Shown here: piece by piece, positions 31,206 through 49,078 of the stretch
Numbering within the stretch: position 1 is the first letter of the stretch
How the letters are laid out: each line of letters opens with the position of its first letter
Assembly (NCBI GenBank): GCA_023489335.1
Contig: JAMDCP010000007.1
Coordinates: 62,001 to 126,000 of the forward strand
Length of the DNA: 64,000 nucleotides
Direction: 5' to 3'
Source of the DNA: Deltaproteobacteria bacterium
GTDB lineage: Bacteria > SZUA-79 > Acidulodesulfobacterales > Acidulodesulfobacteraceae
The notes under the pieces: generated by a model
Told to the model about the DNA's origin: nothing
The model's input: the letters and a program-made list of their open reading frames with translations, nothing else
Database searches by the model: none
Translations under genes and position numbers: made by a program

Positions 31206-31315
31206 AAGAAAAGGTGTTCGATTTATTTTATAAATACCCCGTCATTTTGCCTTAAGGCAAAATGAAACCCCTTTTAAAAAAGGGGAATTAAAAAATAAAT
31301 CGGACGCCTTTTCTT
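31206..31315. repeat. ~110-bp long palindrome, copy 1
   Basis: Left arm from AAGAAAAGGTGTTCGATTT pairs with AAATCGGACGCCTTTTCTT at the right end. Inside are a perfect 22-nt hairpin (CATTTTGCCTT/AAGGCAAAATG) and a CCCCTTTT/AAAAGGGG hairpin. It starts 1 nt after the cytochrome stop and ends 3 nt before the stop of the convergent yifB gene, so it probably serves both as a bidirectional terminator. Related to 47034-47143 and 48972-49078. Confidence 0.85.
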
Positions 31316-31318
31316 GCC

Positions 31319-32899
31319 CTAAGCCCTGAGAAATTTAGTATTTCTGTAATTTAATGCCTCAAGAATGGAATCTTCGTCTAATTTATCTTTTCCCTCGATA
31401 TCTGCGATAGTCCTTGCGACTTTCAGGGTTTTATGATAAGCCCTCGACGATATGTTTAATTTTTGGCAGATATTGTAATAAAAACTTAAGGTTGAATCCG
31501 GTATATTAATATATTTCTTGATACCGGAACTATTTAACGAGGAATTAAATCTAATATCCGTTCCTATATATCTTTTACCTTGAAATTTTCCAGTTCGTTC
31601 AATCCTTTCTTTTACTTCTTTAGAACTTTCGCCTGTTTTGTTATCCATAAGTTTTTCTAAATTAACGGAATATACCTCAATAAATATATCGAATCTATCG
31701 AGTATAGGCCCCGATAATTTATTATAAAACCTGTAAATTTCAGCGCTTGAACACCTGCATTCATGATTTTCGTCGCCGTAATAACCGCAGGGACATGGAT
31801 TCATTGCGGCAATAAGCATAAAATCGCATGGAAAAAGGATAGAAAAACGGCTTCTCGACAGGTTAACCATTTTGTCCTCCAACGGCTGCCTGAGGGAGTC
31901 CAATGTTTTTTTACTTAACTCGGAAAACTCGTCTATAAATAAAACTCCGTTGTGGGCAAGGCTAATATCGCCGGGCGCCGGGTTAGCGCTTCCTCCTCCG
32001 ATTAATCCTGCCGTTGTTATAGTATGATGAACCGAAATAAAAGGCCTTTTTGAAATAAGGATGCCCTCTTCTTTAAATTTTTTGTTTGAAAAACTGCGGA
32101 TATTCGATGTCTCGATAGATTCCTCTAACGATATATCCGGCAATATTCCCGCTGCGCTTTTGGCGAGCATCGTTTTTCCGCTGCCTGGAGGCCCTATCAT
32201 GAGAATATTATGATGGCCGGAAACCGCTACTTCAAGCGCTCTTTTGGCAAGTTCGTGCCCTTTTATATCCAAAAAATCGGGGCAGTCATTATTTTTATTT
32301 TCCCATGGTTCCCTTTGTTTTACATAAAAGTTAAAATATTCATGATTCGGCAAATAGTTTTCTTTAAAAACTGCTTGAATTAATTCTCCATCTTCTCCGC
32401 TTATGAATTTGCACACATCCATTAATGTGCCGAAGGACTTAAAATTAACCCCAAAAAATTCCGCGGTTTCTTTATTTTCATCCGGTATTATGATAGCTTT
32501 ATTTAACTTTTTGGCTAATATCCCCAGGGCTATTACACCGTTAACCTTATTTAATCTTCCGTTTAAGGATAATTCTCCCGCAATAATATAGTCGTCAAGA
32601 TTAATTTTGCATTTAAGCAGCTTAGCCGAAATTAAAATACCTATAGCAAACGGCAAGTCAAAGGTGGAGCCTGCCTTCCGCATATCGGCTGGCGCCAGAT
32701 TTATGGTTATCTTTTTAACGGGATAATCAAAACCGGAGTTTTTAATTGCCGCCTTGACCCGGTCCTTTGCCTCCTTGGTAGAAGTGTCGGGAAGGCCTAC
32801 AATCATAATACCGGGAATGCCTGTCGTTATAAATACTTCGACATCCACAGGGATAGCGTTAATACCTATAAATGTAGCGCTTTTTAGACGGGTAATCAT
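31319..32899 (-). CDS. YifB/ComM-family Mg-chelatase-like AAA+ ATPase
   Basis: 526 residues. The N-terminal Lon-protease-like ChlI domain starts SATFIGINAIPVDVEVFITT with GLPDTSTKEAKDRVKAAIKN. The AAA+ core has Walker A IGPPGSGKTMLAKS and Walker B GVLFIDEFSELSK, then MNPCPCGYYGDENHECRCS, and a C-terminal helical domain. ComM is a hexameric helicase promoting branch migration during integration of transformed DNA. It is ordinary in length and stands alone; the stop is TAG beside the long palindrome. Confidence 0.93.
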   Translation of the reverse strand: MITRLKSATFIGINAIPVDVEVFITTGIPGIMIVGLPDTSTKEAKDRVKAAIKNSGFDYPVKKITINLAPADMRKAGSTFDLPFAIGILISAKLLKCKINLDDYIIAGELSLNGRLNKVNGVIALGILAKKLNKAIIIPDENKETAEFFGVNFKSFGTLMDVCKFISGEDGELIQAVFKENYLPNHEYFNFYVKQREPWENKNNDCPDFLDIKGHELAKRALEVAVSGHHNILMIGPPGSGKTMLAKSAAGILPDISLEESIETSNIRSFSNKKFKEEGILISKRPFISVHHTITTAGLIGGGSANPAPGDISLAHNGVLFIDEFSELSKKTLDSLRQPLEDKMVNLSRSRFSILFPCDFMLIAAMNPCPCGYYGDENHECRCSSAEIYRFYNKLSGPILDRFDIFIEVYSVNLEKLMDNKTGESSKEVKERIERTGKFQGKRYIGTDIRFNSSLNSSGIKKYINIPDSTLSFYYNICQKLNISSRAYHKTLKVARTIADIEGKDKLDEDSILEALNYRNTKFLRA

Positions 32900-33081
32900 A
32901 AAACAATACCTGATATAATAGTCGTTATTTTTAAATAAATATTATATCAACCTATTGTGAAGGTATTATGAAGGAAATGTTAAAAAGAGGTTAAACTTTT
33001 ATTACGATTTAATGAAATTAAATCAAGGAGATAAATGCATACTACCTTTGCCTTTCTTGTCGGAAACAACTTAGCCTGCTT

Positions 33082-34488
33082 TTAATTTTCTTGCAGGGAT
33101 GCGATTTTTAAACTATTATGTTTAAAAAAGTATGCAAAAAGGGTTTTTTCCGCAACTCCGCCTCCGGTGATTCTCCACACGGGTTTTTCTATAACAAGGG
33201 TCGATAAGGCAATTTTTTTGCCGTTACTTTCGCCGAATCCGGCAAACCATTGATATAACCCTTCAGGATTATTGCCCGAAATAGTTCCCGTTTTGCCTCC
33301 TGCAATAACGCCGGGAAGCATATATTGATTATAAGCATTATAAAAATCCGGACGGCCTATGCCGCTTGTAATAGTTTTAATCATCATTTGTTTTAAAATA
33401 AACGCGGTTTTTACCGTTATAGGATCGTCTAACACTTTAATTCCTCGATGGGTATATAAAGTATGCCCGTCCGGACCGATAATTTTTTCAATAATGTAAG
33501 GCTCTACCAGCTTGCCTCCGTTTATTATAGCAGCGGAAATTAAAGCGGCCTGAAGAGGAGTAACTTTCACATTTTCAAAGCCGGCGCCCGTAAGTTCTAA
33601 TCGATAAAAGTTATTCGGAACATCCGCTCTGCTTTCTTGAAGATTTAAAATAAAAGGTATATTTTTATTGAAATAAAATTTATTAAAATAATTCATTAGC
33701 AATCTCTTTCCGACATAAAATCCTGCAACTTTGCCGAATGCCACATCGCAAGATTTTGCAAATGCCAGACTAAAAGATATTCTGTTTAATCCCGTGCTTA
33801 TATTTTGTTTCCAGTAAGATTTATTGGTTCCGTAAATTCCGCCGTTATAGCAAATATTAAATCCGGGATAAAAGCCCTTTGATTCTATAGCTGCCGATGC
33901 CGTTATTATCTTGGTTAATGAACCCGGGGGGTAAGGGATAAGACCTGAAATCTCGTTCATCCTTTTTTTGTTACGCGAATAAGAAACTAAACCCAAAACC
34001 GCACCGGTATCGGGGTTTACGGCTGCCATAACTCCAAAAGGAACGGCATATTCCTTAAAAGTCTTTTCCGTCTCTTTTTGAATTACGGGTTTTATAGTAT
34101 AAACAATGGTATAGCCGCCTATTTTTTGAATGTAGCGGCCGTCCTTAATTTCATTAAAGACGGGAGCATTATGTTTAAAATATGTTTTTAAAGATTTAAT
34201 AGAAAAACCTGCGTCTAAAAAGGGGTTAAAATCCATTATGGCAGATTTTACCGCCCCGTCTTTATCTTTGATGGAATTAATCGGCCTTATTCCTGTCCCT
34301 TGAAACTGCTTGCTGCGGATTAGAATATACGATTTACCTAAGTAAAACATTCTAACCGAGCCGTAAGCTAATAAAATAACGAAAATTAAAAACCCGATTA
34401 ATTTTATTGAAGATGCAAAATTATTTTTTTTCCTTTTTTGTCTGTTAAGTATTTTTTGATACGACTTCCAATCCTTTATTCTTTCCAT
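33082..34488 (-). CDS. Penicillin-binding transpeptidase (PBP2/PbpA-like)
   Basis: 468 residues: one N-terminal membrane helix (LIGFLIFVILLAYGSVRMFY), a short dimerisation region, then a transpeptidase domain with the active-site SxxK in PPGSLTKIITASAAI, the second motif AKSCDVAFG (SxD where SxN is usual) and the KTG triad GGKTGTISG. It cross-links peptidoglycan in the periplasm. It lacks the transglycosylase domain and the long pedestal of FtsI, resembling PbpA-type proteins. It follows tldD by 3 bp on the minus strand, so the two are co-transcribed. Confidence 0.88.
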   Translation of the reverse strand: MERIKDWKSYQKILNRQKRKKNNFASSIKLIGFLIFVILLAYGSVRMFYLGKSYILIRSKQFQGTGIRPINSIKDKDGAVKSAIMDFNPFLDAGFSIKSLKTYFKHNAPVFNEIKDGRYIQKIGGYTIVYTIKPVIQKETEKTFKEYAVPFGVMAAVNPDTGAVLGLVSYSRNKKRMNEISGLIPYPPGSLTKIITASAAIESKGFYPGFNICYNGGIYGTNKSYWKQNISTGLNRISFSLAFAKSCDVAFGKVAGFYVGKRLLMNYFNKFYFNKNIPFILNLQESRADVPNNFYRLELTGAGFENVKVTPLQAALISAAIINGGKLVEPYIIEKIIGPDGHTLYTHRGIKVLDDPITVKTAFILKQMMIKTITSGIGRPDFYNAYNQYMLPGVIAGGKTGTISGNNPEGLYQWFAGFGESNGKKIALSTLVIEKPVWRITGGGVAEKTLFAYFFKHNSLKIASLQEN

Positions 34489-34491
34489 TTA

Positions 34492-35895
34492 TCACCCGTT
34501 ACTTTTTCCGCCGACAACAATCTGTGGAATTCTGAGCGTGGGTTGCGCATCAGATACCGGAACACCCTGTCCGTCTTTACCGCATGTTCCAATGCCAAAC
34601 CCCAAATCATTCCCTACCATATCTATATTTCTTAAAACTTCGGGTCCGTTTCCCATAAGGGTTGCCCCGCTGACGGCTTCACCCACAGCCCCGTTTTTTA
34701 TGATATAACCCTCCATGACATCGAATACGAAATCGCCCGTAACGGTATTTACCTGTCCCCCGCCCATTTTTTTAACAAAAATGCCGTCCTCTACGCTCTT
34801 TATTATGTCTTCCGGCATGGATTTGCCGGGAGCAATAATAGTGTTGGACATTCTAACTATAGGGTGGTGTTCGTACGACTGCCTTCTGCCGTTTCCCGTG
34901 AGTTCATACCCATATTTAATATTGGATAACCTGTCGGACATATATTGTTTTAATATCCCATCTTCCACAAGCACATTTTTATTCGAGAATGTTCCCTCAT
35001 CGTCAAATCTATAAAATCCTCGTTTTCCTGCCAAAGAAGAGTCGTCTATAACCGTTATTAACTTCGAAGCTACCTGTTCCCCAATTTTGTCCGAATAAAC
35101 GCTTAAGCCATTTCCCGCAATATCGGCTTCCAACCCATGGCCTATAGCCTCATGTATCATTGTTCCGCCGGCCTCGCTCGATAATACCACGGGCATAGTT
35201 CCGGAAGGCGCAAAGGGGGCGTCAAGCTGGGTTATAGCCCTGTTTAAAGCCTTCTTAGCAATATCTTCCGGGTCAACATTATCAAAAAATTCAAAGCCGG
35301 TAAAGCCTCCCGCCACTTCATATCCAACTTCAGTTTTTTTGCCGTTAGATACGACAACATGCGCTAAAAAAGCCAAATTTTCTCTAAAATCTTTTACAAA
35401 ATCCCCCAGCGAATTCACAATTATAACATCCTGTTTATAGTCGGAATAGGTGATATTTACCTGGACGGCTCTTTTATCAAAGTCCCATGCAAATTTTACG
35501 ACAGGCTCTATTTTTTTTAGTTTTTCGGAGGTTGAGGTCTCTGCCACATCCTTTAGGATTTGAAAATGGGTTTTTGGCTTCTTCTCGTTAAAATTAAGCG
35601 CCGCAATCTTATAGGTACCGTTTCGGTCATAGTATGCCGCCTCTTTTAAACTTTTCCCGATTTGCATCAGATTTTTTTCATCCAGATTATTCGTGTAAGC
35701 GTAATATGTTTTTTTATTTGAAATAAGCCTGATGCCCGCCCCCTGGATTATTCCGCTAATTGCCTTTTCAAGTCTTTTCCCCTCGTTCGATAACAAAGTG
35801 GAGACTTTAGATTCTATAAATATATCTACAAAATCATCTTCATTATTCGATGCGTTTGCAAAAATTTTACTAAAATCCAAATTTGTTATATCCAT
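34492..35895 (-). CDS. tldD: TldD-family metalloprotease
   Basis: 467 residues of the TldD/PmbA (modulator of gyrase) family. The zinc site is HEAIGHGLEADI (HExxxH) in GGTMIHEAIGHGLEADI, with the C-terminal GTCGKDGQGVPVSDAQPTLR region. The family degrades peptides (microcin maturation, CcdA turnover) in a TldD/TldE heterodimer. The TldE partner is not in this window. ATG at 35895; the penicillin-binding protein gene follows at once. Confidence 0.92.
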   Translation of the reverse strand: MDITNLDFSKIFANASNNEDDFVDIFIESKVSTLLSNEGKRLEKAISGIIQGAGIRLISNKKTYYAYTNNLDEKNLMQIGKSLKEAAYYDRNGTYKIAALNFNEKKPKTHFQILKDVAETSTSEKLKKIEPVVKFAWDFDKRAVQVNITYSDYKQDVIIVNSLGDFVKDFRENLAFLAHVVVSNGKKTEVGYEVAGGFTGFEFFDNVDPEDIAKKALNRAITQLDAPFAPSGTMPVVLSSEAGGTMIHEAIGHGLEADIAGNGLSVYSDKIGEQVASKLITVIDDSSLAGKRGFYRFDDEGTFSNKNVLVEDGILKQYMSDRLSNIKYGYELTGNGRRQSYEHHPIVRMSNTIIAPGKSMPEDIIKSVEDGIFVKKMGGGQVNTVTGDFVFDVMEGYIIKNGAVGEAVSGATLMGNGPEVLRNIDMVGNDLGFGIGTCGKDGQGVPVSDAQPTLRIPQIVVGGKSNG

Positions 35896-35959
35896 TTTGC
35901 CCTCAATGATTACACTTATTATTTTTTTTATTTATAACTTCATAAATTTTAACATAAGA

Positions 35960-35988
35960 TTGTTTATTTATAAAGATTTTTATATAAT
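35960..35988 (+). promoter_or_regulatory. Candidate promoter for alanine racemase
   Basis: TTGTTT (35960-35965), 17 bp, TATAAT (35983-35988), about 44 bp before the alr ATG, in the divergent gap with tldD. The -10 box is a perfect match, the -35 box is partial. Confidence 0.5.
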
Positions 35989-36032
35989 TTATACATTGCC
36001 AATTAAAACTAAAATTAAAACCTTAATTTTCG

Positions 36033-37160
36033 ATGAATGATACCACGCTCTTTATAAATCTAAAAAACTTAGAAAATAATATCAATCAAATAAAATCCCT
36101 TAAATTAGCTAAAAATAAAACTATAATCGCTATTTTAAAATCCGATGCTTACGGTCATGGAATCCTCCCTATAGCCGACACCCTCATGAATAACGGCGTG
36201 AACTTTTTTGGAATCGTTAAAATGAGCGAGGCAATCTCCCTTCACAAAAAACATCCCGGGGCAAAACTTTTAATGCTCATGGGCGTCTCCGAAAGCGACA
36301 TAAAGGAAGCCTTAAAGATGAATTTAAGCATTGCCGCCTTTAGTTTAGATTACATTAAATTTCTTTTAAATAAAGCAAAGGAACTTAAGCCGCCGCTCCC
36401 TTTGAACCTGCATATAAAATATGATTCGGGAATGAATAGATTAGGATTAAACGATGTCGAAATAAAAAAAGCAATAGAAATTATAAAAAAAAACAAAAAT
36501 TTATTAAATATCGAGGGAATTTTCAGCCATTTGTCATCTGCCGGAAACGACTTAGAATATACGAATTTTCAGCTTAAAAACTATAAAAAGATATTGTCCG
36601 AATTTAAAAGCGGGGGTATTATACCTCAATTTACACATATAAGCGCAAGCTCTTCGCTCGCGAATAATAAAATAGAACAGGATTTTTCTAATGCGATAAG
36701 ACCGGGAATATCGCTTTACGGCATAAATCCAAATCCGGATAATTATAAAAATCTAAATCTTAAGCCATTGATGGCTTTAAAATCATCTATTATTCAAATA
36801 AAAAAAATAAAAAGGGGCTCGTTTATATCCTACAACAATACATTTAAGGCGCCTTATGATATGCTCGCCGCTATTATACCCGCAGGTTATGATAACGGTA
36901 TCCCAAGGCTTTTATCTAATAGCGGCAGATTTTTGATTATGGATAATTTCTCAAATATTGTGGGAATAGTAACTATGAATATGACAATAGTCGATATTAC
37001 AAAAATAGAAGGGGTAAATGTGGGAGGCGAAGTGATAATTGCGGGGGAAAGCCTTACAAAACGGATTGGCATAGAGGAAATTGCCTTAAAAGCCCAAACC
37101 ATCCCTTATGAAATATGCCTTAACTTAGGGAAATCAAATCAAAAAACTTATATTTATTAA
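36033..37160 (+). CDS. alr: Alanine racemase
   Basis: 375 residues. The PLP lysine lies in AILKSDAYGHG near the N-terminus of the TIM barrel. The phosphate/substrate region HIKYDSGMNRLGL, the RPGISLYGINP motif and the catalytic tyrosine stretch FISYNNTF (usually VSYGGT) are all present. It supplies D-alanine for peptidoglycan, which fits the nearby PBP and amidase genes. Monocistronic, diverging from tldD and ending at a terminator shared with the opposite operon. Confidence 0.95.
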   Translation: MNDTTLFINLKNLENNINQIKSLKLAKNKTIIAILKSDAYGHGILPIADTLMNNGVNFFGIVKMSEAISLHKKHPGAKLLMLMGVSESDIKEALKMNLSIAAFSLDYIKFLLNKAKELKPPLPLNLHIKYDSGMNRLGLNDVEIKKAIEIIKKNKNLLNIEGIFSHLSSAGNDLEYTNFQLKNYKKILSEFKSGGIIPQFTHISASSSLANNKIEQDFSNAIRPGISLYGINPNPDNYKNLNLKPLMALKSSIIQIKKIKRGSFISYNNTFKAPYDMLAAIIPAGYDNGIPRLLSNSGRFLIMDNFSNIVGIVTMNMTIVDITKIEGVNVGGEVIIAGESLTKRIGIEEIALKAQTIPYEICLNLGKSNQKTYIY

Positions 37161-37162
37161 AT

Positions 37163-37190
37163 AAAAAAAGCCCACTGGAAAGTGGGCTTA
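37163..37190 (-). terminator. Intrinsic terminator of the nfu-greA-car-pyr operon (also ends alr)
   Basis: AAGCCCACT / AGTGGGCTT around GGAA at 37168-37189. On the minus strand the hairpin is followed by a T7 run (A run at 37163-37169 on the plus strand), 32 bp after the nfu stop. Confidence 0.88.
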
Positions 37191-37221
37191 ATTGCCAAAA
37201 AAATATCGGCAGAAATTTAAC

Positions 37222-37452
37222 TCAAACCGCATTGACCTCTTTCACGCCCGGCACGCGTTCCTTCAGCAGGCGTTCGATGCCGCCCTTAAGCGTCATTATA
37301 GAACCCATGCAACCGGCGCAGGCGCCTTTAAGTCTAACATTAACGGTTCCGTCGTCTAAAATGTTCACCAACTCCACATCACCTCCGTCAAATTGTAAAG
37401 ACGGTCTGATTTCATCTAAAACTTTCGTTACTTGAACTTTATCTAAAGCCAT
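37222..37452 (-). CDS. NifU C-terminal-like Fe-S scaffold protein (Nfu)
   Basis: 76 residues, essentially only the Nfu domain: VLDEIRPSLQFDGGDVELVN, the cluster-binding CxxC in LKGACAGCMGS, and TLKGGIERLLKERVPGV. It carries a 4Fe-4S cluster for delivery to apo-proteins in the cytoplasm. RBS AAAGGAGG. Last gene of the minus-strand operon, 72 bp after greA. The radical SAM enzyme upstream in the operon could be a client (inference). Confidence 0.93.
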   Translation of the reverse strand: MALDKVQVTKVLDEIRPSLQFDGGDVELVNILDDGTVNVRLKGACAGCMGSIMTLKGGIERLLKERVPGVKEVNAV

Positions 37453-37524
37453 TATTAAGTCCTCCTTTTATTTTACCTGTTTTGTCTCATCTTCTCTATA
37501 AACAATACTATATAAATAGTATCA

Positions 37525-38010
37525 TCAAATATATTTAATGTCAAGGATTTCAAACTCTTTAACCCCCTTAGGAACATTTATGGTTACCTCATCTCCCACG
37601 CATTTGCCTATTAATGCTTTAGCGATAGGGGAACTTATGGAAATTTTACATTCTTTTATATTTGATTCGAGGTCCCCGACTATCTGATACTCTACCTCGC
37701 AATCCGCGTTTAAATCCAGCAGTTTTACAAATGCGCCAAACACGACCTTTTCTTCGCAAATTTTAGAGATATCTATTACCTGAGCCCTTGCTATCTTATC
37801 CTCGAGCTCCATAATCTTACCCTCAAGAAAGCTCTGTCTTTCTTTTGCGGCGTGATACTCCGCATTCTCGGATAAATCCCCGTGAGCCCTTGCCTCTTCG
37901 ATTGCTTTGATATTTGCAGGTCTTTCGACGGATTTTAACCTCTTTAATTCTTTAACCATACTGCTGTAACCTTCTTTTGTAATAGGAAAAGATTTTTCTG
38001 TCCCTGCCAA
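37525..38010 (-). CDS. greA: Transcription elongation factor GreA
   Basis: 161 residues: an N-terminal coiled coil (ITKEGYSSMVKELKRLKSVE, then EARAHGDLSENAEYHAAKER with the acidic tip) and a C-terminal FKBP-like domain (KISISSPIAKALIGKCVGDE). It rescues backtracked RNA polymerase by stimulating transcript cleavage. It begins at a TTG behind AGGGGGTGAG, 14 bp after carB; carB-greA linkage is common in bacteria. Confidence 0.95.
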   Translation of the reverse strand: MAGTEKSFPITKEGYSSMVKELKRLKSVERPANIKAIEEARAHGDLSENAEYHAAKERQSFLEGKIMELEDKIARAQVIDISKICEEKVVFGAFVKLLDLNADCEVEYQIVGDLESNIKECKISISSPIAKALIGKCVGDEVTINVPKGVKEFEILDIKYI

Positions 38011-38024
38011 TAAAACTCACCCCC

Positions 38025-41000
38025 TTATACTCCTTTATAGTAATCCTGCAATGCCTTAACCGATATATTATGCTCCTTCAACGCCTTTATTGCCATGCAT
38101 GCGGCGGTAGCACCCCTGATTGTCGTATAATAAGGCAAAGAAAATTCAATGGCGCTTCTTCTTATTATATATGAATCCTCTAAGGATTTCATCCCCCTCG
38201 GCGTGTTAAAAATCATTGAAATTTCCTTGTTTTTAAGGGCGTCTATTATGTGCGGCCTGCCTTCTTTTACCTTATTTATCTTTTGATTTTTAATGTTTAA
38301 TCCGTTTAAATACTCCGATGTTCCCTTTGTGGCGAGTATATGGAAACCCATATCTATTAAAGGTTTGCAAATACCGCTTAAATATTTTTTGTCCTCGTCT
38401 TTAACGCTTATCAAAACCGCGCCAGATAATGGAAGGTTTTGGCCGGCTGCTATCTGCGATTTGGCATAAGCCATTCCGAAATTTACATCTATTCCCATTA
38501 CCTCGCCCGTCGAACGCATTTCCGGTCCAAGCATAGGATCGACATTAGAAAATTTCGAAAACGGAAAAACGGCTTCCTTCACGCAATAATAATCGATATT
38601 AAACGACCTTCCAAGTTTGAAAGAATCAAGCTCTTCTCCCAGAAGAATCTTTGTCGCAAGCTTGGCAATGGGAACGCCGGTCGCCTTGCCTACAAACGGC
38701 ACGGTTCTCGATGCCCGCGGATTAACTTCTATAACATATATATCGTTATTTTTAACGGCATATTGAATATTGATAAGTCCCTTAACTTTAAACTCAAGAC
38801 AAATCGTTACGGTTATTTCTTCTATCCTGGAGGTAATATCCCTGTCTAAAGAAAATACCGGCATCGAACATGCGCTGTCCCCGGAATGAACGCCCGCTTC
38901 TTCTATATGCTCCATTATTCCCGCTATATAAACGGACTTGGAGTCGCTTAATGCGTCAACATCTACCTCGATGGCATCTTCTAAAAATTTATCTATCAGG
39001 ATAGGAAAAGAAATATCCTGCTTGGATATCTTTTCGATATATTGCCGTAAATTATTTTCATTATGGATAATTTCCATTGCCCTTCCACCCAGGACATAAG
39101 AAGGCCTCAGTAAAACAGGAAAACCGATCCGGGTAGAATTATTATAAACCTCTTCATCGTTAAACGCCATTGAACTATTTGGCTGCAGGAGATTTAATTT
39201 TTCGATCACCCTTTTGAACTTTTCCCGATCCTCGGCGGTGTCAATGTCTTTAAAAGATGTCCCCAGTATTTTAATGCCGCTTGAATCAAATTCTTTTGCC
39301 AGCTTAAGCGGCGTTTGACCGCCAAATTGCAATATAATAGGCGGGCGGTCCTCGATATTTTCGATGCTCATAACATCTTCGGAAGTTAACGGTTCAAAAT
39401 ATAATCTGGACGAGGTATCATAATCGGTAGAAACAGTTTCAGGGTTACAGTTGACCATTATCGAAGAATAACCGTTTTCTTTTAAAGCTAAGGCGCAGTG
39501 AACGCAGCAATAGTCAAATTCTATTCCCTGCCCGATCCTATTCGGACCGCTGCCAAGAATAACTATTTTATTGTTTTCTAACGGTTTAACCTCGTTAAAT
39601 TTATCATAAGATGAATACATATAAGGTGTGGCGGCTTCAAATTCGGCGGCGCAGGTATCGACCTTCTTATAAACCCTTAATATATTATTCTTTTTGCAAA
39701 TGTCCGCTATATACCTCTCAGTTTCTTTAATTAATGCGATTGCCCTTTCGTCTTTTTTTAAATAATCTTCGGGGGCAATATGTTTTCCGTCTCTACATCT
39801 TGCGGTCAGCTTTGCAATAACCCAATTAGAAAAATCAAATTCTTTAGCTTCCCTTAAGAGCGGAATATTCCCTTCCAAATCCTGAATGGAAAATAGTTTT
39901 TTTTCAAGTTCTATGATGAGTTTAATTTGATTTAAAAACCACTTATCGATTTTGGACAATTCATTAATCTCGTCAACCGTAAGATTTATCCTTAGGGCAT
40001 CAGCTATTAAAAACAGCCTCCTATAATCGTTATTTTTTATCAGCGACCTTATTTCTTCTTTAATTATAGGGATATCTTGTTCGCTTCTGCTCCCTTCGTA
40101 AGATAAATCCAATCCGTAAAGGGATTCAATCCCGTGATTCCCGTTTTCTAACGACCTGGCGGCCTTTTGAATCGAACCAATAAATGTTCTGCCTATTGCC
40201 ATAACTTCACCGACCGATTTCATATGGGTTGTCAAGGTATTATCGGTTTGAGGAAATTTTTCGAATGTAAAACGGGGTATTTTCGTAACGACATAATCTA
40301 TCGACGGCTCAAAACATGCAAGTGTTTTTTTAGTAATATCGTTCGTAATTTCATCTAAAGTATAACCGACCGCCAACTTTGCGGCAATCTTGGCTATTGC
40401 GAACCCGGTCGCCTTCGAGGCTAAACTCGAGCTTCTCGAAACCCTGGGATTCATCTCGATAACATATACCTTATCGGAATTAGGGTCTAAAGCAAATTGA
40501 ATATTAGAGCCTCCGGTTTCGACTCCTATCTCGTTCATTATCTTAATGGAATAGTCGCGAAGTTTCTGTAAATCTTTATCGTTCAAGGTTTGAACGGGCG
40601 CAACGGTGATAGAGTCTCCCGTATGAATCCCCATAGGGTCAAAGTTTTCGATAGAGCATATTATTATAGTATTTCGATTTTTATCCGTCATTACCTCAAG
40701 CTCGACCTCTTTGAATCCTATAGCGGATTTTTCGATTAATATCTCGTTAATCGGGCTTGCATTTATACCGTTTGAGGCAAACTCCGCAAATTCTTCGATA
40801 TTATATGCTATGCCTCCCCCTGTGCCGCCCAGCGTAAAAGAAGGCCTTATAATTACGGGAAAACCGATGCTCTTTTGAACCTCGTAAGCCTCATCCATAT
40901 TGGTGGCAAAACCGCCCTGCAAAACCGGAATACCTATCTTTTCCATACTTTTTTTAAAATATTCCCTATCCTCGGCTTTTTTAATTGCGTCAATATTTGC

Positions 41001-41351
41001 GCCTAAAATTTTTAATCCGTATTTTTGTAAAACTCCGTTTTCGTGAAGTTCCAAGGTTAGATTAAGGGCGGTCTGCCCGCCAAGCGTCGGCAATATGCTA
41101 TCCGGCTTTTCCTTTTCTATGATTTTTGTAATAAATTCCTTTGTTAATGGTTCAATGTAAGTTTTACTCGCATAACCGGGGTCTGTCATAATAGTAGCGG
41201 GATTAGAATTTACAAGTATGACCTCATAGCCTTCCTCGGCTAAGGCTTTTGCCCCCTGTGTACCCGAATAATCAAACTCGGCCGCCTGCCCTATTACGAT
41301 AGGACCGGAGCCTACTATTAGAATTCTTTTAATATCGGTTCTTTTAGGCAT
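38025..41351 (-). CDS. carB: Carbamoyl-phosphate synthase large subunit
   Basis: 1108 residues with two homologous ATP-grasp halves: [20 protein letters not shown] near residue 8 and [20 protein letters not shown] near 590. The C-terminal MGS-like allosteric domain begins at ~955 ([18 protein letters not shown]). It makes carbamoyl phosphate from bicarbonate, ATP and the ammonia channelled from CarA, for pyrimidine and arginine synthesis. Slightly longer than E. coli CarB. The radical SAM gene separates it from carA. Confidence 0.97.
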
Positions 41352-41377
41352 AATTTTATTAAATGGTTAATTTTTGA

Positions 41378-42310
41378 TTAAAATATTAAAGAATTATCTT
41401 CCTGAAAATATCCCGTTAAATTTGCATTTGCCAGGTCTGAAATGGCTTCCGCATATTCCACTGCGGTTATTTTTCGATTGATTTTAGAATCATACCGGGC
41501 TTTATATGCGGGAAAATATTGGCTCATAAGGCTTACAGGAACATTTTCGCCAAGCTCGCCCGCGATAAATTTAAAAGAATCTTTATGTCCGCTTATTCCT
41601 TCCGGTAAAACGAGGTGCCTGACCATAAGACCAGAAACGGCAACCCCTTGAGCATCCGCAACAAGTTCTTTAACCTGGTTATACATAATCTTTAAAGCCG
41701 CTCTATTAATTTCGACATAATCTTTTATTCCCGAATACCTTAAAGCATCCTCATTACTTGAATACTTAATATCGGGAAGATATATGCCTACAATTTTATC
41801 TAATAAGTTAAGCGTTGTTTCCGATTCATAACCCGAACTGTTATAAACAATCGGTATGGAAAGCCCTTCTTGTTTTGCCAAAAATATGGATTCCGCAACG
41901 AACGGCATATAATGCGAAGATGAAACTAAATTAATGTTGCAGGCGCCCTTTTCCTGAAGTTTAAGCATACCCGCTGCAAGCTCCGCGGCATCATATAAAT
42001 TGCCTGCGCAATATCTGCTAATCGGATAATTCTGGCAAAATTTGCATTTAAGCGGACATCCGCTAAAAAAAATTGTCCCTGAACCGGTTTTCCCCGATAT
42101 AGGCGGTTCCTCGCCAAAATGAAGGTTTATGCTTGCGATTCTTAATTTACCCTCTGCGCCGCACAGGCCTTTTTCACCGCTTAATCTTTTGGCTTTACAT
42201 TTTCTCGGGCAAAGCCCGCACTCGCGGGCCAACTCGTAAAGCCCGTCAATTTTGGACAAAAACTCTTTGTTCGAAAGGCTTAAATATGACGGTAAATGTT
42301 TTGATTTCAT
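41378..42310 (-). CDS. Radical SAM protein, PflX-like (COG1313 type)
   Basis: 310 residues. An N-terminal cysteine cluster ARECGLCPRKCKAKR with GLCGAEG is followed by the radical SAM motif FFSGCPLKCKFCQNYPIS (CxxxCxxC), then GACNINLVSSSHYMPF and the C-terminal YFPAYKA. This is the PflA-like uncharacterised family. The function is unknown; members are thought to act as activating or peptide-modifying enzymes. Its place between carA and carB within the pyrimidine operon is uncommon. Confidence 0.85.
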   Translation of the reverse strand: MKSKHLPSYLSLSNKEFLSKIDGLYELARECGLCPRKCKAKRLSGEKGLCGAEGKLRIASINLHFGEEPPISGKTGSGTIFFSGCPLKCKFCQNYPISRYCAGNLYDAAELAAGMLKLQEKGACNINLVSSSHYMPFVAESIFLAKQEGLSIPIVYNSSGYESETTLNLLDKIVGIYLPDIKYSSNEDALRYSGIKDYVEINRAALKIMYNQVKELVADAQGVAVSGLMVRHLVLPEGISGHKDSFKFIAGELGENVPVSLMSQYFPAYKARYDSKINRKITAVEYAEAISDLANANLTGYFQEDNSLIF

Positions 42311-42326
42311 TTATTAAAAATATAAA

Positions 42327-43454
42327 CTAAGCCTTAAAAATTCTTTTTTTATTATTCAAGCATAGCTCTTTAAATTCGGAAAAAAGATACCTTGAATCTC
42401 TGGGCCCCGGCGAGCTCTCGGGGTGGTATTGGACCGAAAATGCTTTTAATCCGGCATTTTTAAGACCTTCTACGGTATTATCGTTAAGGCTTATATGGGT
42501 TAATTCGGTATTCTTTGATATACGGCCGCCGACAGAAGACAAATCGACGCAAAAGCCATGATTTTGGGAGGTTATTTCTATCTTTGAGGTTTTAAGGTTT
42601 TTAACCGGATGGTTTATTCCGTGATGGCCAAATTTAAGCTTGTATGTATTAAAACCTAAAGACAAAGCCAATAACTGGTGTCCCAAACATATTCCAAAAA
42701 TCGGTTTTTCACCAATCAGGCTTTTTATGGTTTCGGTTTCTTCTTTCATAGTTTTAGGGTCTCCAGGCCCGTTGGACAAAAGAATTCCGTCAGGGTCGGT
42801 TTTAAGTATCTCCTGTTTGGAAAAATTATGCGGAACAACGGTTACGCAGGCATTTAAATCATTAAGGCATCGTATCGTGTTATACTTAACGCCGTAATCG
42901 ATAATAGTTACATTAAACTCGGGGGACTTAACCCTTTTCTCGTAAACCTCGCCCGTAGAAACATTTTTGACAAGATTTAAGCCTTCCATTTTGGGCAAAC
43001 AGGTTAGCTTGCTTTTTATATATGTAATTCCCGATTCCTTTGGGGCGATATACGCATTAATCGAACCTTCATTTCTTAAATCTATAGTTAAATATCTCGT
43101 GTCAATCCCTGAAATTACGGGAAAACCATAAGCATTAACAAATTCGGATAAACTTTTTGAAGCGCTAAAATGGGAAAACATCCGGACATAGTTTTTTGTT
43201 ACAAGTCCCGATATCCATACCCTTTCCGATTCAAAATCCGTATCGTTTATCCCGTAATTACCGATCATCGGGTATGTCATAAGAACAATCTGTCCGTTAT
43301 AAGAAGGGTCCGTAATTAATTCCTGGTAACCGTTCATGGCCGTATTAAAAACGATTTCGCCGCCTGATTCTATCGCCTTTCCCTCGTAATAACCCTCGTA
43401 ATATTTCCCGTTATCAAGCAGAAGCAGCGCTTTTTCTTTGCTTAGATTGCCCAT
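42327..43454 (-). CDS. carA: Carbamoyl-phosphate synthase small subunit
   Basis: 375 residues: the N-terminal CarA domain (LLLDNGKYYEGYYEGK, GEIVFNTAMNGYQEL) and a C-terminal class I glutaminase with the nucleophile GICLGHQLLAL and the His/Glu pair SVQYHPESSPGPRDS. It hydrolyses glutamine and passes ammonia to CarB. It follows pyrC by 18 bp in the operon. Confidence 0.97.
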   Translation of the reverse strand: MGNLSKEKALLLLDNGKYYEGYYEGKAIESGGEIVFNTAMNGYQELITDPSYNGQIVLMTYPMIGNYGINDTDFESERVWISGLVTKNYVRMFSHFSASKSLSEFVNAYGFPVISGIDTRYLTIDLRNEGSINAYIAPKESGITYIKSKLTCLPKMEGLNLVKNVSTGEVYEKRVKSPEFNVTIIDYGVKYNTIRCLNDLNACVTVVPHNFSKQEILKTDPDGILLSNGPGDPKTMKEETETIKSLIGEKPIFGICLGHQLLALSLGFNTYKLKFGHHGINHPVKNLKTSKIEITSQNHGFCVDLSSVGGRISKNTELTHISLNDNTVEGLKNAGLKAFSVQYHPESSPGPRDSRYLFSEFKELCLNNKKRIFKA

Positions 43455-43472
43455 ATTTATAATTTGGAATAA

Positions 43473-44750
43473 TTAATTTGCCTTAATTAAATTGGCATTA
43501 ACAACAATATATAATGGAAGCCCGACAAAATCCATATCGATAAAAGGAGAATTTTTACTTAACGATTTAATCCTATCCTTTGTAAACACCCACTTTTTAT
43601 TAATATCCACAATCGTGATATCCCCGGCAAACCCATTTTTTATGCCCCCTCTGTTGCCAAGATTTAAAATATTTGCCGGATTTAAAGACATAAGCATAGC
43701 TATATCCGTTAGCGTCAGCCTTTTTTCTCTATATAACTTTAGCGTTAAAGGGAGCGATGTTTGAAGCCCTATAATTCCAAACGGTGCATCGTCCAATGTC
43801 GTATCCTTTTCGTCTTCGCTATGCGGGGCGTGATCCGAGGCTATAACATCGATTGTCCCGTCTAACAGCGCCTCTTTGATAGCAAGGACATCATCTTTTG
43901 CCCTCAGAGGCGGGTTCATTTTTGCATTGGTATTATAATTTAAAAGCGAGTCTTCGGAAAGGGTAAAATAGTGGGGGCATGTTTCGCATGTAATATTTGC
44001 GCCTTCCTTTTTTGCCCGCCTTATGATATTAACCGAACCTTTGGTGGAAACATGCGCTATATGAAGCCTTGCATCGTAATATTTCGCAAGCAACACATCC
44101 CTTGCTACGGCTATTTCTTCGGCGATATTCGGAATCCCCGCAACTCCAAGCCTTTGGGAAACCGCCCCTTCGTTCATTACCCCTTTGCCCCGCAATTTTA
44201 TATCCTCGCTGTGGGATATAACGGGTAAATCAAATGTTTTGGCATACAAAAGCGCCCTTGCCATAAGCGAGCTGTCATCTACGGGATTTCCGTCATCGCT
44301 TATTGCAACCGCTCCCGATTCTTTTAATTCGCCGATATTAGCTAAAGATGCCCCGTTTAAACCTTTTGATACGGCGCCAATGGTAAAAAGATTAATCAGA
44401 TTAATGGATTTTGCCTTATTCAATAAAAAACTGTTTACGGATTTAGAGTCATTTGGAGGATTAGTATTTGGCATACAGCAAATAGAAGTGAATCCACCCG
44501 CTACCCCTGCCTCCATTCCGGACTTAATATTTTCTTTATATTCAAAACCGGGCTCCCTTAAATGGACATGCATATCTATAAGCCCCGGCAGAACGATTAA
44601 GCCCTTTGCATCTAATGTTTCGGCGCCTTTTATAGTTTTTTCCCGTGGAAAGTCTTTTATTACGCCATTTTCTATATAGATATCCCTTTTAATCTCTGTT
44701 TTGGTAACCGGGTCAACGACTATCCCGTTTTTTATTATAAGTTTCCGCAT
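43473..44750 (-). CDS. pyrC: Dihydroorotase (type I)
   Basis: 425 residues of the amidohydrolase superfamily. The metal ligands are DMHVHLREPG (HxH) near residue 60, the later HVSTKGSVNIIRR and the ASDHAPHSEDEK aspartate. Length and the GFEYKENIKSGMEAGVAGGF motif are those of class I dihydroorotase, the third step of UMP synthesis. It is 4 bp downstream of pyrB, so the two are tightly coupled. Confidence 0.96.
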   Translation of the reverse strand: MRKLIIKNGIVVDPVTKTEIKRDIYIENGVIKDFPREKTIKGAETLDAKGLIVLPGLIDMHVHLREPGFEYKENIKSGMEAGVAGGFTSICCMPNTNPPNDSKSVNSFLLNKAKSINLINLFTIGAVSKGLNGASLANIGELKESGAVAISDDGNPVDDSSLMARALLYAKTFDLPVISHSEDIKLRGKGVMNEGAVSQRLGVAGIPNIAEEIAVARDVLLAKYYDARLHIAHVSTKGSVNIIRRAKKEGANITCETCPHYFTLSEDSLLNYNTNAKMNPPLRAKDDVLAIKEALLDGTIDVIASDHAPHSEDEKDTTLDDAPFGIIGLQTSLPLTLKLYREKRLTLTDIAMLMSLNPANILNLGNRGGIKNGFAGDITIVDINKKWVFTKDRIKSLSKNSPFIDMDFVGLPLYIVVNANLIKAN

Positions 44751-44754
44751 ACTT

Positions 44755-45681
44755 TTAATTTTTTTGAACGCCGAGCAAAATATAAAGGCAAGCCATCCTC
44801 ACTGCCACCCCATTTTCAACCTGCTTTAAAATGCGGGTTTTATTTTCGTTTATTATACTGCCCGCTATTTCGACATCACGGTTCACAGGACCGGGGTGAA
44901 GCACTATAACATCTTTTGAAGCTAAAGATAACAAATTTGGCGTTAATTTGAAAAAATTTCTGTATTCTTCTATGGACGGTATAAAATAATAACTTGCTCT
45001 TTCTTTTTGAATCCTGAGCATTATTATAACATCGGCATTTTTAACCGCTTCTTCCATACTGCGCGCGATTTTTACATTTCGCGAGTCTTTAAATCTCGGC
45101 AAAAGTGAATACGGACCGTATAAATAAATCTCTGCGCCAAGTTTAGATAACCCATAAATATTTGACCTTGCTACCCTTGAATGGTAAATGTCTCCGATAA
45201 TTGCCACCTTAAGAGAACCGATATCGCTCTTTTCCTCCATTATGGTCATAATATCTAAAAGGCATTGGGTCGGGTGTTCGTTCATCCCGTCGCCCGCATT
45301 TATGGTTGAGGCTTTTGTTATTTTCGATATAAAATAGGATGCCCCAGATTCATGATGCCTCACAATAAAGGCATCCGGTTTCATAGATTCTAAATTTAGT
45401 ATAGTGTCCTTTAAACTCTCTCCTTTAGTAACCGAACTTTGTGAAATACTGATGTTTAGCGAATCTGCGCTTAACCTTTTTTGGGCGATCTCAAAGGATG
45501 ACCTCGTTCTTGTAGAGGGTTCGTAAAAAAGATTTACGACGGTTTTACCCCTCAAAGTCGGAACCTTCTTTATATCCTTTAATGATATTTTTTTAAATTC
45601 CTTCGCTGTTTCTATAAAGTAATAAATATCGGATTTAGTCAGGTCGTTAATCGAAATGAGGTCTTTTTTATCGAAGCTCAT
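44755..45681 (-). CDS. pyrB: Aspartate carbamoyltransferase catalytic subunit
   Basis: 308 residues. The carbamoyl-phosphate site FYEPSTRTRSSFEIA, the HESGASY loop, HPTQCLLDIMTIMEE and HPGPVNRDVEI are present. It condenses carbamoyl phosphate with aspartate. No pyrI regulatory subunit is adjacent, so this is a pyrR-linked, unregulated-type ATCase. 14 bp separate it from pyrR. Confidence 0.97.
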   Translation of the reverse strand: MSFDKKDLISINDLTKSDIYYFIETAKEFKKISLKDIKKVPTLRGKTVVNLFYEPSTRTRSSFEIAQKRLSADSLNISISQSSVTKGESLKDTILNLESMKPDAFIVRHHESGASYFISKITKASTINAGDGMNEHPTQCLLDIMTIMEEKSDIGSLKVAIIGDIYHSRVARSNIYGLSKLGAEIYLYGPYSLLPRFKDSRNVKIARSMEEAVKNADVIIMLRIQKERASYYFIPSIEEYRNFFKLTPNLLSLASKDVIVLHPGPVNRDVEIAGSIINENKTRILKQVENGVAVRMACLYILLGVQKN

Positions 45682-45695
45682 TGAAAATTAAAATA

Positions 45696-46274
45696 TTATG
45701 TTTTAATAATTTTATCAACGCGTTTTTCTTTGCTTATAATATCGACATGGATTATCTCATCTTTACCTGCCTCAATTTTTTTTCCGACAAAGTCGGGACA
45801 TATCGGCAGTTCCCTTCCTCCTTTATCGATAAAAACGGCAAGCCTAATGCTCTTAGGCCTTCCAAAATCAAAAATCTCATCTATTGCCGCCCTGACCGTC
45901 CTTCCGCTGCTTATAACATCGTCAACCAGAATGACATCTTTATCCCCTATGTCAAACGGCAATTCCGTCGATTTGATAGGCTTTTTTACAGTAAACGGGT
46001 CGTCCCGGTAAAGCGTCATATCGACATAGCCTATTTCACAGTCTATTTTAAAATGGTTTTTAATATTTTTTTTTATTAAACCGGCTAAAGGAACCCCTCC
46101 TTCCTTTATGCCGATTATAACGGTATTGCTAAAACCAACGGCTTTAGCGCTCCGAGCTTGCGTTTCAATCGATTTTAAAACTGAGCCTATAAAATCGTTC
46201 AGAATATCATTTGTCGCTGAATCGTTAAAAAGTAAGATTTTGTCCAATTTTTTAAAATCATCCGAACTAACCAT
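45696..46274 (-). CDS. pyrR: PyrR, bifunctional pyrimidine operon regulator/uracil phosphoribosyltransferase
   Basis: 192 residues. The PRPP loop DVILVDDVISSGRTVRAAID and the N-terminal TVIIGIKEGGVPLAGLI, then YVDMTLYRDD, are the PyrR pattern. In Bacillus PyrR binds pyr mRNA when UMP is high and causes attenuation. Here no anti-terminator/terminator pair was recognised in front of the operon, so its regulatory role is open. Its start overlaps the lepB end by 8 nt. Confidence 0.93.
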   Translation of the reverse strand: MVSSDDFKKLDKILLFNDSATNDILNDFIGSVLKSIETQARSAKAVGFSNTVIIGIKEGGVPLAGLIKKNIKNHFKIDCEIGYVDMTLYRDDPFTVKKPIKSTELPFDIGDKDVILVDDVISSGRTVRAAIDEIFDFGRPKSIRLAVFIDKGGRELPICPDFVGKKIEAGKDEIIHVDIISKEKRVDKIIKT

Positions 46275-46932
46275 TTTTCATTTTACCTTCCCCGTATTTA
46301 AAAGGACACTCCGGAACCATCTTAAAAAATCTTTTATAATAAATATCGAAATGATTTTTGGGATTCCATGAAAAGTAAATCATAAATGCCTGCCCTATTA
46401 TATCCTTATACGGCACAAAGCCCCAATATCTTGAGTCTAAGCTGTTATCCCTGTTATCTCCCATAACAAAAAGCTCGCCTTTAGGAACGGTTATCGGACC
46501 AAAATTATCCCTTGGGGAATCATAGGCGGGCAAATTCTTTTTTGATGTCCATACGGCGTATTTGCAAGCGTATAGATGATTATTAATATAAACATTGTTA
46601 TCGATAATCTGAACTTTATCTCCGGGCGTTCCGACCACTCTTTTTATAAAATCTATCCCCGGATGTAAATTATATTTTTTTGCGTAAGGAAATTTAAAAA
46701 CTATGACCTGTCCCGTTTTAGGATGAGATACGGGAATAACGGTATTTGTGAAGGGAATATGAATGCCGTAGATAAACTTGTTGACCAATATATGGTCACC
46801 GGGTATAAGATCGGGTTCCATAGAACCGGACGGTATTTTAAATGCCTGTACCACAAATGCTCTAAAGAAAAGGGCGATAATTATCGCTATAATAATCGCT
46901 TTAAAATAGTCCCATAAAGTATGTTTACTCAT
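46267..46932 (-). CDS. lepB: Signal peptidase I
   Basis: 221 residues: N-terminal membrane helix (FKAIIIAIIIALFFRAFVV), catalytic serine in IPSGSMEPDLIPGD, catalytic lysine in FIKRVVGTPGD, and box E FVMGDNRDNSLDSRYWG. It removes Sec signal peptides on the periplasmic face. First gene of the lepB-pyr-car operon. Separated from lepA by the long palindrome at 47034-47143. Confidence 0.96.
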   Translation of the reverse strand: MSKHTLWDYFKAIIIAIIIALFFRAFVVQAFKIPSGSMEPDLIPGDHILVNKFIYGIHIPFTNTVIPVSHPKTGQVIVFKFPYAKKYNLHPGIDFIKRVVGTPGDKVQIIDNNVYINNHLYACKYAVWTSKKNLPAYDSPRDNFGPITVPKGELFVMGDNRDNSLDSRYWGFVPYKDIIGQAFMIYFSWNPKNHFDIYYKRFFKMVPECPFKYGEGKMKNG

Positions 46933-47033
46933 AAAAATAAATCGATAATAAATTAAATTAAATTAATAAGCAAGTAAGATAGGTTGGTTCGCATTTTCTT
47001 GATTATATCAATTTTTTTGCTTAAAGTCTATCC

Positions 47034-47143
47034 GCAAAAAGGTATCCGATTTATTTTTTAATTCCCCTTTTTTAAAAGGGGTGGCGGTCCGCCTTTAGGC
47101 GGACTGACGGGGTATTTATAAAATAAATCGGATACCTTTTTGC
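47034..47143. repeat. ~110-bp long palindrome, copy 2 (inverted relative to copies 1 and 3)
   Basis: Arms GCAAAAAGGTATCCGATTT and AAATCGGATACCTTTTTGC pair perfectly. Inside are the hairpins CCCCTTTT/AAAAGGGG and GTCCGCC/GGCGGAC. It lies 5 nt after the lepA stop and 101 bp before the lepB start, so it can act as a terminator or processing site between the two genes. Confidence 0.85.
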
Positions 47144-47148
47144 CAGAT

Positions 47149-48957
47149 TTAGGAAACCTTAAGTATTGAAAGAAACGCCTCCTGCGGAATTTCAACCGAC
47201 CCGATGTTCTTCATCTTTTTTTTACCCTCTTTTTGTTTTTCAAGAAGTTTTCTTTTCCTTGTAATATCCCCGCCATAGCACTTGGCGAGAACATTCTTTC
47301 TTAATGCCTTGATTTCTTCTCTTGCTATGATTTTAGACCCTATTTGAGCCTGAAGGACGACCTCGAACAATTGCCTCGGTATCAGGGTTCTTAGCTTTTC
47401 CACGATATTTCTTCCGCGGGCATAAGCCTTATCCTTGTGGACAATAACGGAAAGCGCATCGACCGGCTCCTTATTAACAAGTATTTCAAGCTTTATCATA
47501 TCGGAAGCCCTGTATCCGTTGAGTTCGTAATCAAAAGACGCATAGCCTTTCGACAATGATTTGAGCTGGTCGTAAAAATCAAGGACTATTTCCGATAGCG
47601 GCAGGTCATAAATAAGCTGGACCCTGTTTTTTGTTATGTACTTTAACTCGACCTGATGCCCCCTTTTTTCGACGCAAAGGTTTATTATCTTTCCTAAAAA
47701 TTCCGAAGGAACATAAATATTTGCTCTAATAAACGGCTCTTCGATGTAGTCCACCTCCTGCGCTGGTATTTCCTTCGACGGCGGAAATTTCATAGGATTA
47801 AGCGCGGATTTTACTTCTCCCGTTTTTGTAACGATATTATAAAGAACGGTAGGGGATGTCGATATCAGGCTAAGATTATATTCCCTTTCCAATCTTTCTA
47901 CTATTATTTCCATATGCAAAAGCCCCAAAAATCCGCACCTGAATCCAAAACCTAAGGCAAGGGAGTTCTCAGGCTCGTAAGAAAATGAAGGATCGTTAAG
48001 CTTAAGTTTTTCGATGGAATCCTTAAGCTCGGGATAATCGTTTGCATCTATCGGATAAATCCCCGCAAATACCATTGGCTTTGGTTCTTTAAAACCGGGA
48101 AGCGGATTTTTAGCTTGATTATCTTTTAATGTAACGGTATCGCCGATTTTAAATCTGCCGGCATCTTTTATATTTGCTATAATAAAGCCGACCTCGCCGG
48201 CGCTTAAACAATTAAGTTCTTTCATATAGGGACTATAAACGCCGACTTTTTGAACCTCGTAAGAGGCGCCAGAATTCATCAGGAGTATGTTGTTCCCCGG
48301 AACCACTTTACCGTCGAATATTCTAACAAGCGCAACAACGCCCTGGTATGCATCGAACCATGAATCAAAAATTAAAGCCTTGAGGGGGGCGGACGGGTCT
48401 CCTTTCGGCGCAGGAATTTTATTTATAACGGCCTCAAGTATCTCCTTTATCCCTATGCCTTCCTTAGCGCTTGCCAAAATAGCGTCATCCGCTTCGAGGC
48501 CGACAACTTCCTCTATCTCTTTTTTTGTCTTTTCGGGATCTGCGCTGGGTAAATCGATCTTATTTATAACCGGAACAATGGCTAAGTTCATATCGGAAGC
48601 AATATAAACATTGGCAAGCGTCTGCGCCTCGACGCCCTGGGTGGCATCGACCACAAGAAGCGCGCCTTCGCATGCGGCTAACGACTTTGAAACCTCGTAA
48701 GAAAAATCCACATGCCCCGGGGTATCGATTAGATTAAGGGCATAATTAATGCCGTTATAATTATAATTTAACCTGACGGTTTGGGCCTTTATGGTGATTC
48801 CTCTTTCGCGTTCAAGTTCCATATTGTCGAGAAACTGGGAAACCTTTTCCCTTTCGGTTATCGCCCCTGTAAAGTCTAAAAATCTGTCCGCAAGCGTAGA
48901 TTTCCCATGGTCTATATGGGCTATGATAGAAAAATTTCTTATGTTTTTGATTTCCAT
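47149..48957 (-). CDS. lepA: Elongation factor 4 (LepA)
   Basis: 602 residues, the normal length. GTPase motifs are [15 protein letters not shown] (G1), [14 protein letters not shown] (G3) and NKIDLP (G4). The LepA-specific C-terminal domain includes [11 protein letters not shown] and [20 protein letters not shown], ending with the basic [17 protein letters not shown] region. A ribosome-associated GTPase. No Shine-Dalgarno-like sequence is visible before the ATG; palindrome copy 3 begins 14 nt upstream instead. Confidence 0.97.
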
Positions 48958-48971
48958 TGATTGATATTAAT

Positions 48972-49078
48972 AAAAAGGTATCCGATTTATTTTATAAATA
49001 CCCCATCAGTCCGCCTTTAGGCGGGACTGACACCCCTTTTAAAAAAGGGGAATTAAAAAATAAATCGGATACCTTTTT
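48972..49078. repeat. ~107-bp long palindrome, copy 3
   Basis: Arms AAAAAGGTATCCGATTTATTTT and its reverse complement at 49057-49078 flank CCGCC-TTTA-GGCGG and CCCCTTTT/AAAAGGGG hairpins. It lies between the 3' end of rnpB and the lepA start, same orientation as copy 1. Confidence 0.85.

Follow-up and report, generated by a model that had tools for sequence, protein, structure and literature searches.

The terminal repeats (TIRs) of TIRYTs, which carry the motif GGGGWSAS, flank genes of the RAYT class (Di Nocera et al. 2013, PMC3733652), and TIRYTs have been assigned to TnpAREP subclass 2.1 (HUH, Y and a C-terminal HTH), which equals RAYT group 1 (PMC6006769). A pair of REP units in inverted orientation makes up the extragenic hairpin of REPINs and BIMEs, in the arms of which concerted or compensatory change is common (Bertels & Rainey 2011, PMC3116915). 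For CGTC-tagged REPs, which have an unpaired CGTC tag, a stem of 8-9 bp, a loop of 4-5 nt and the tail CCA, no transposase is known; CGTC-1 dimers lie inside 41-bp palindromes in H. neapolitanus, and mobile REPs are already known to prefer positions at the 3' ends of genes (PMC3733652). The order that holds Candidatus Acididesulfobacter diazotrophicus has been described (PMC6776010), and the family of genomes analysed here belongs to it.

The window, a stretch of 64,000 nt corresponding to C8:62001-126000, belongs to the genome of an acid-mine-drainage bacterium from a family of Ca. Acidulodesulfobacterales (G000; 1.80 Mb in 21 contigs, 92% complete) and contains three palindromes of 107-110 nt, referred to as c1, c2 and c3 (Table 1). 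Their original prediction, including the inverted orientation of one copy, was borne out by both sequence and fold: the RNA minimum free energies are -43 to -58 kcal/mol, compared with shuffled means of -18 to -25, giving z values of -7.7 to -10.7 on either strand, with none of 200 shuffles equally stable. The differences described among the copies are also correct, both in the arms (GGTATCCG/CGGATACC versus GGTGTTCG/CGGACGCC) and in the inner hairpin, where AGTCCGCC is swapped against ATTTTGCC with pairing kept. The supposed swap of AAG against GCA at the outermost positions is no trait of the family, since complementarity outside the A-run/T-run differs between copies. It also holds that no more than 15 nt separate each of the three palindromes from the start or stop of a gene; in sharper wording, they lie directly past a 3' end: c1 is flanked by two convergent stop codons, c2 lies immediately 3' of the lepA stop, and c3 is located 12 nt past the 3' end of the RNase P RNA. 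RNase P and tRNAs are the sole Rfam matches in the window.

Table 1 Palindromes and arm-like sites of the window (positions in the window; C8 coordinates in the description)
Feature	Position	Strand	Description
Copy c1	31206..31315	+	Arm-core-inverted arm composite palindrome, CATTTTGCC-type core hairpin; match C8:93209-93312
c1 left arm AAAAGGTGTTCGATTTATTTTA	31209..31230	+	Terminal repeat of apparent RAYT/TIRYT type
c1 core	31231..31291	+	ATAAATACCCC-GTCATTTTGCC hairpin, then CCCCTTTT..GGGG hairpin; limits approximate; covariance-model match C8:93232-93288
c1 right arm, inverted	31293..31312	-	
Copy c2	47034..47143	-	Composite palindrome, lepA stop to signal peptidase I promoter; match C8:109036-109141
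c2 core	47061..47117	-	Covariance-model match C8:109061-109117
Copy c3	48972..49078	+	Composite palindrome, RNase P RNA 3' end to lepA start; C8:110972-111078
c3 core	48996..49053	+	Covariance-model match C8:110996-111053
Weak lone arm-like site AAGATGTCAGATTTATTT	57698..57715	+	Two mismatches; possibly a decayed single arm; C8:119698-119715

The three palindromes are members of a dispersed family with about 40-55 copies in this bacterium. With c3 as a blastn query, 113 aligned pieces were obtained from G000, and the central part was located at ~40 distinct places, whereas the covariance model of the core (R1) yielded 71 matches at E <= 0.01, a number in which some hairpins count more than once through overlaps or hits on the opposite strand. 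The 18-nt arm AAGGTRTCCGATTTATTT has 55 copies in the genome at no more than one mismatch (backward control, 0) and 80 at no more than three mismatches (backward control, 8). Across 30 genomes of the family, the outer arm AAAAAGGTATCCGATTTATTT is present in 28 (backward control, 0) and the core, as detected by the covariance model, in 15, its sequence diverged and its layout unchanged (AACCACCCCGTCGGCCTTTGGCCGACACCCCTCCTTAAAAGGAGGGG). When 60 relatives were searched with c3, the matches outside G000 consisted almost exclusively of the arm. The phage and plasmid collections contained no match to c3, and an exact pattern scan of the genome-contig collection, from which close records may be missing, returned nothing. 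At L043, L046, L047 and L058, in genomes of two genera, a single arm closely precedes the same PhzF-like gene; it is either ancient or was co-transferred with the gene.

Both the arms and the central part proved to be repeats in their own right. The composite consists of an outer arm of ~20 nt (AAAAAGGTATCCGATTTATTTT), a central core and the inverted arm. The core, with the layout ATAAATACCCC-GTCA-stem-loop-TGACA-CCCCTTTT-AAAAGGGG-AATTAA (in short form CCCCGTC-stem-GACACCCC...GGGG), opens with CGTC, forms a stem of 8 bp with a loop of 4, and has C runs on both sides; it constitutes a second repeat family that is also found alone. Armless cores occur, for example, at L020, L022, L026, L029, L035 and L036, and arm-to-arm palindromes of 44-51 nt devoid of a core at L011, L085, L088, L108 and L303; arms and core are two separable repeat families joined in a composite unit. 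The own-genome loci that were fetched contain 17 inverted arm pairs, and the same arm-core-arm order and junctions are common to at least nine G000 copies (L001-L005, L013, L018, L019, L028), an agreement that points to copying of the composite as such. At yet another level, several copies have an additional hairpin in place of a portion of the core stem, either CATCTTTGCCTGC...GCAGGCAAAGATA (L013, L018, L019, L021, L033) or CATATTCACC...GGTGAATAT (L024, L028, L030, L037), with L030 carrying both types. Repeats of the GTCATTGCGAG...CAATCTC type, a further palindromic repeat family, interleave with the core at L007, L008, L014, L021 and L194.

The outer arm could be placed with the help of 80 RAYT loci in named genomes, the majority of them Pseudomonas. 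The arm motif AAGG[TG][AG][TA]C[ACT]GATTTATTT has 267 matches at 73 of these loci (backward control, 0), where the homologue reads AAGGGGACAGATTTATTT with variants, and its density at the loci is 3.2 per kb near the RAYT ORF versus 0.37 per kb far from it. At 61 of the 80 loci, an inverted arm pair brackets the RAYT ORF (plus-strand arm upstream and minus-strand arm downstream, within 350 nt), the distance to the gene being mostly 45-66 nt upstream and 16 nt downstream; because the homologue forms this inverted pair, the arm is best read as a terminal repeat, that is, a TIR of TIRYTs. Within the family studied here, there are 0.72 arms per kb around RAYT genes compared with 0.08 around IS200/605 TnpA genes, and genomes with a complete RAYT contain more arms (P 0.012). 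G000 itself, with its 55 arms, is an exception, and the association is made less clear by three arm-rich genomes without a RAYT and, conversely, by G019, which has a RAYT and 2 arms. The RAYT proteins, encoded by family genomes of two genera, match Y1_Tnp with HVH/HIH and the conserved Y visible, show no C-terminal Pfam domain, and score 75 bits against REP_Tyr_transpos (NF047646), slightly below the cut-off of 80. One family genome, G009, contains contig SGBB01000036.1 of Candidatus Acididesulfobacter diazotrophicus, with the same RAYT gene, which is the basis for placing the family in the order of that organism. The loci L061-L069 of G009 harbor elements of ~285-300 nt with the ends TATCCGATTTATTTTATCTYYTACTCCTG, whose first four bases differ between the two ends; they represent another large family of arm-bounded repeats, this one in Ca. 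Acididesulfobacter.

The resident RAYT that the original prediction had led us to look for was not found in G000 at 92% completeness, nor in G001 or G002, and G003 has only a stretch of 36 residues; the PF01797 matches in G000 correspond to IS605 TnpA and one fragment and hence to no RAYT. With no RAYT in the genome, the palindrome family looks orphaned in G000. The proposal of RAYT/MITE-type mobile palindromes thus stands as far as the many copies, the empty sites in congeners (see below) and the homology of the arm to RAYT-flanking repeats are concerned, and has to be qualified in that the own genome lacks a RAYT and the unit is a composite of two families.

The arm resembles the TIRs of TIRYTs, which as inverted repeats flank a RAYT-class Y1 gene and are also dispersed singly, as dimers and in clusters. 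The homologues AAGGGGACAGATTTATTT and GGGGACAG of Pseudomonas and relatives fit GGGGWSAS, whereas the G000 arm GGTATCCG/GGTGTCCG has no literal fit; drift within this order has turned the motif into GGTGTCAG/GGTATCCG, and the G000 arm is probably a drifted member of the TIRYT TIR repeats. Unlike in TIRYTs, the 55 arms of the own genome are present without a transposase and the dimers enclose another repeat. As in REPINs and BIMEs, an inverted pair forms one extragenic, dispersed hairpin with frequent compensatory changes, but the arms of ~20 nt lack a GTAG-tagged stem-loop, the spacer is a second repeat of ~60 nt, and no cognate RAYT is resident. The core, a candidate CGTC REP, recalls this group in the initial CGTC, the 8-bp stem, the 4-nt loop, the nesting within a palindrome and the lack of a known dedicated transposase; it differs in that the GTC of its tag pairs with GAC in about half of the copies, in its tail CACCCC and in the fixed second hairpin CCCC..GGGG that follows. 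As to the ends of IS200/IS605 elements and PATE-like palindromes, a hairpin upstream of an IS605-type gene pair (L042:1662-1712) looks similar in layout, on inspection by eye, to the third-level hairpins that have entered the core; IS605 TnpA loci lack surrounding arms. Mobile palindromes of this kind are already known, and the nesting is a variation on the known kind.

None of the relatives examined has the element at the c1-c3 sites. The element is absent from the lepA and RNase P ends in all 13 relatives with an intact neighbourhood, as it is from the yifB ends of the relatives examined; among the congeners, G001-G003 lack it at the c2 and c3 sites, and G002 and G003 at the c1 site. The flanks of the relatives at these empty sites are too diverged for the exact insertion points to be fixed. 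Target-site duplications were sought by eye and by flank complementarity, and no consistent direct repeats were seen at the ends of the elements, the orthologous empty sites being too diverged for a nucleotide-exact comparison. In the sister species G002, the regions downstream of lepA (L190; c2 site) and yifB (L204; c1 site) contain different palindromes, of ATTCC...GGAAT types, so that both gene ends appear to be occupied by unrelated repeats there. Of 40 copies in G000, 39 are intergenic and one lies inside a called ORF; 24 are in unidirectional, 12 in convergent and 3 in divergent context. Among the 36 convergent and unidirectional intergenic copies, 26 have a stop codon no farther than 20 nt away, compared with 18.0 expected (P 0.00045) under a null in which each copy was shifted at random inside its own gap and ORFs were called by length alone. 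Since the same preference is known from REPs, this bias is compatible with tolerance as well as with function.

The covarying arms of the original prediction were substantiated genome-wide. Over 17 inverted pairs taken together, 15 differences separate the two arms of the same element, as against 25.4 after shuffling (P 0.0009); the single A/G arm position that had been stressed is borderline (Fisher P 0.053). Among 24 distinct core hairpins, 92.4% of cells are paired and both sides have changed at 7 of 11 pairs, with 25 both-side-changed cells versus 6.0 in shuffled data; the covariation score of the core is 0.312, compared with 0.132 when shuffled and at most 0.125 with the partner slid. The further claim that this pattern signals selection on RNA does not follow, because the spread of subfamilies and hairpin-templated correction predict covariation too.

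We consider it likely that the palindromes are non-autonomous mobile elements of REPIN/TIR type that enclose a second palindromic repeat and were formerly moved by a RAYT that is now missing. Transposases of the RAYT/TIRYT-class Y1 (HUH) group would recognise the outer arm as their terminal repeat, and the inverted arm pair would form a hairpin in single-stranded DNA. By analogy with RAYTs and IS200/IS605 elements, and in line with proposals made for REPINs, a trans-acting RAYT could cut out this hairpin and insert it with no target duplication, carrying along the CGTC-REP-like core, which may spread, or may once have spread, by itself. The RAYT would then have been lost in the lineage or has not been assembled, which probably makes the copies either relics or substrates of some other enzyme. 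They may persist directly past genes as the least harmful insertions and may be transcribed as 3' hairpins; RAYT transposition, RAYT loss and any RNA role are steps that we infer.

The palindromes had also been proposed to be bidirectional intrinsic terminators, and, as such or as mRNA-stabilising hairpins at 3' ends, they would be selected as RNA, with AAAAAGG...CCTTTTT providing a U-tract on both strands. What keeps this reading alive is the 3'-end bias, along with the scarcity of copies in divergent gaps, the placement of c1 exactly amid convergent stops and of c3 just past RNase P RNA, the other palindromes at two of these gene ends in G002, and the covariation of the core. Yet an intrinsic terminator should have an unpaired U-run behind a GC-rich stem, and a canonical scan makes no call at c2 or c3 and at c1 picks up only the inner CCCC/GGGG hairpin; the U-tract is itself paired in the predicted fold. 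Moreover, known mobile REPs are equally biased in position (PMC3733652), the ends of the lepA, RNase P and yifB orthologues in 13 relatives manage without the element, and a terminator would not need an arm sequence that is conserved across phyla beside RAYT genes. Selection as RNA is thus an unlikely origin, and terminator function of the palindromes is possible but unsupported. As doubtful is the notion that arms and core have no common history and that two repeat families with separate movers came together by chance in the few tolerant gaps past genes: arms-only and core-only copies are known, core hairpins have been swapped further and the core occurs in half of the family genomes without constant arms, but the identical order and junctions of at least nine copies speak against it. 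Dispersed copies, inverted arms and empty sites in relatives would also fit a classical MITE of a DDE transposase with the 22-nt arms as terminal inverted repeats; this is very improbable, given that a conserved direct target duplication is absent at the copies, that arms are often single or directly oriented, and that the sole gene repeatedly bracketed by arms is a Y1 transposase.

Arms also stand between genes. In several relatives and in the own genome (L300; C9:127-4424), arms of the same orientation, each followed by a short hairpin, separate unrelated single-gene units (L138-L150, L152, L164, L165, L300) with genes for pilin-like proteins, Rpn nuclease, MazF, PIN and RAYT. Near-identical units recur in different species and have their breakpoints at the arms (such as L138:6777-7594 and L140:3374-2567, 96.7%), and 10 of 19 ends of interspecies homology blocks (>=90% identity) lie within 20 bp of an arm versus 1.6 expected, although these ends are not independent. 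An integron reading of the arrays was rejected: TIGR02249 gave many tyrosine recombinases, none above the cut-off, and no attC consensus was apparent by eye. It is conceivable, if rather improbable, that the arm marks the borders of gene cassettes in a non-integron system of this order, where arm-separated single-gene units are exchanged between species and break at the arms and the window palindromes are empty units; the cassettes would then include the RAYT itself, and the window palindromes would be arm-to-arm units bearing a second repeat. The arrays in relatives may perhaps be a more interesting lead than the palindromes.

Under the favored reading, in which RAYT-type elements carry a nested repeat, the TIR/RAYT repeat system would extend to an uncultivated order of acid-mine-drainage bacteria; the arm motif can be recognised across the range that runs from Pseudomonas to Acidulodesulfobacterales. 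The family would also provide a clear example of one palindromic repeat inside another, both keeping their pairing, in a genome without the presumed enzyme. It thereby makes two questions testable, namely, whether repeats outlive their RAYT, and whether CGTC-like REPs, for which no transposase is known, may travel as cargo of RAYT-type repeats.
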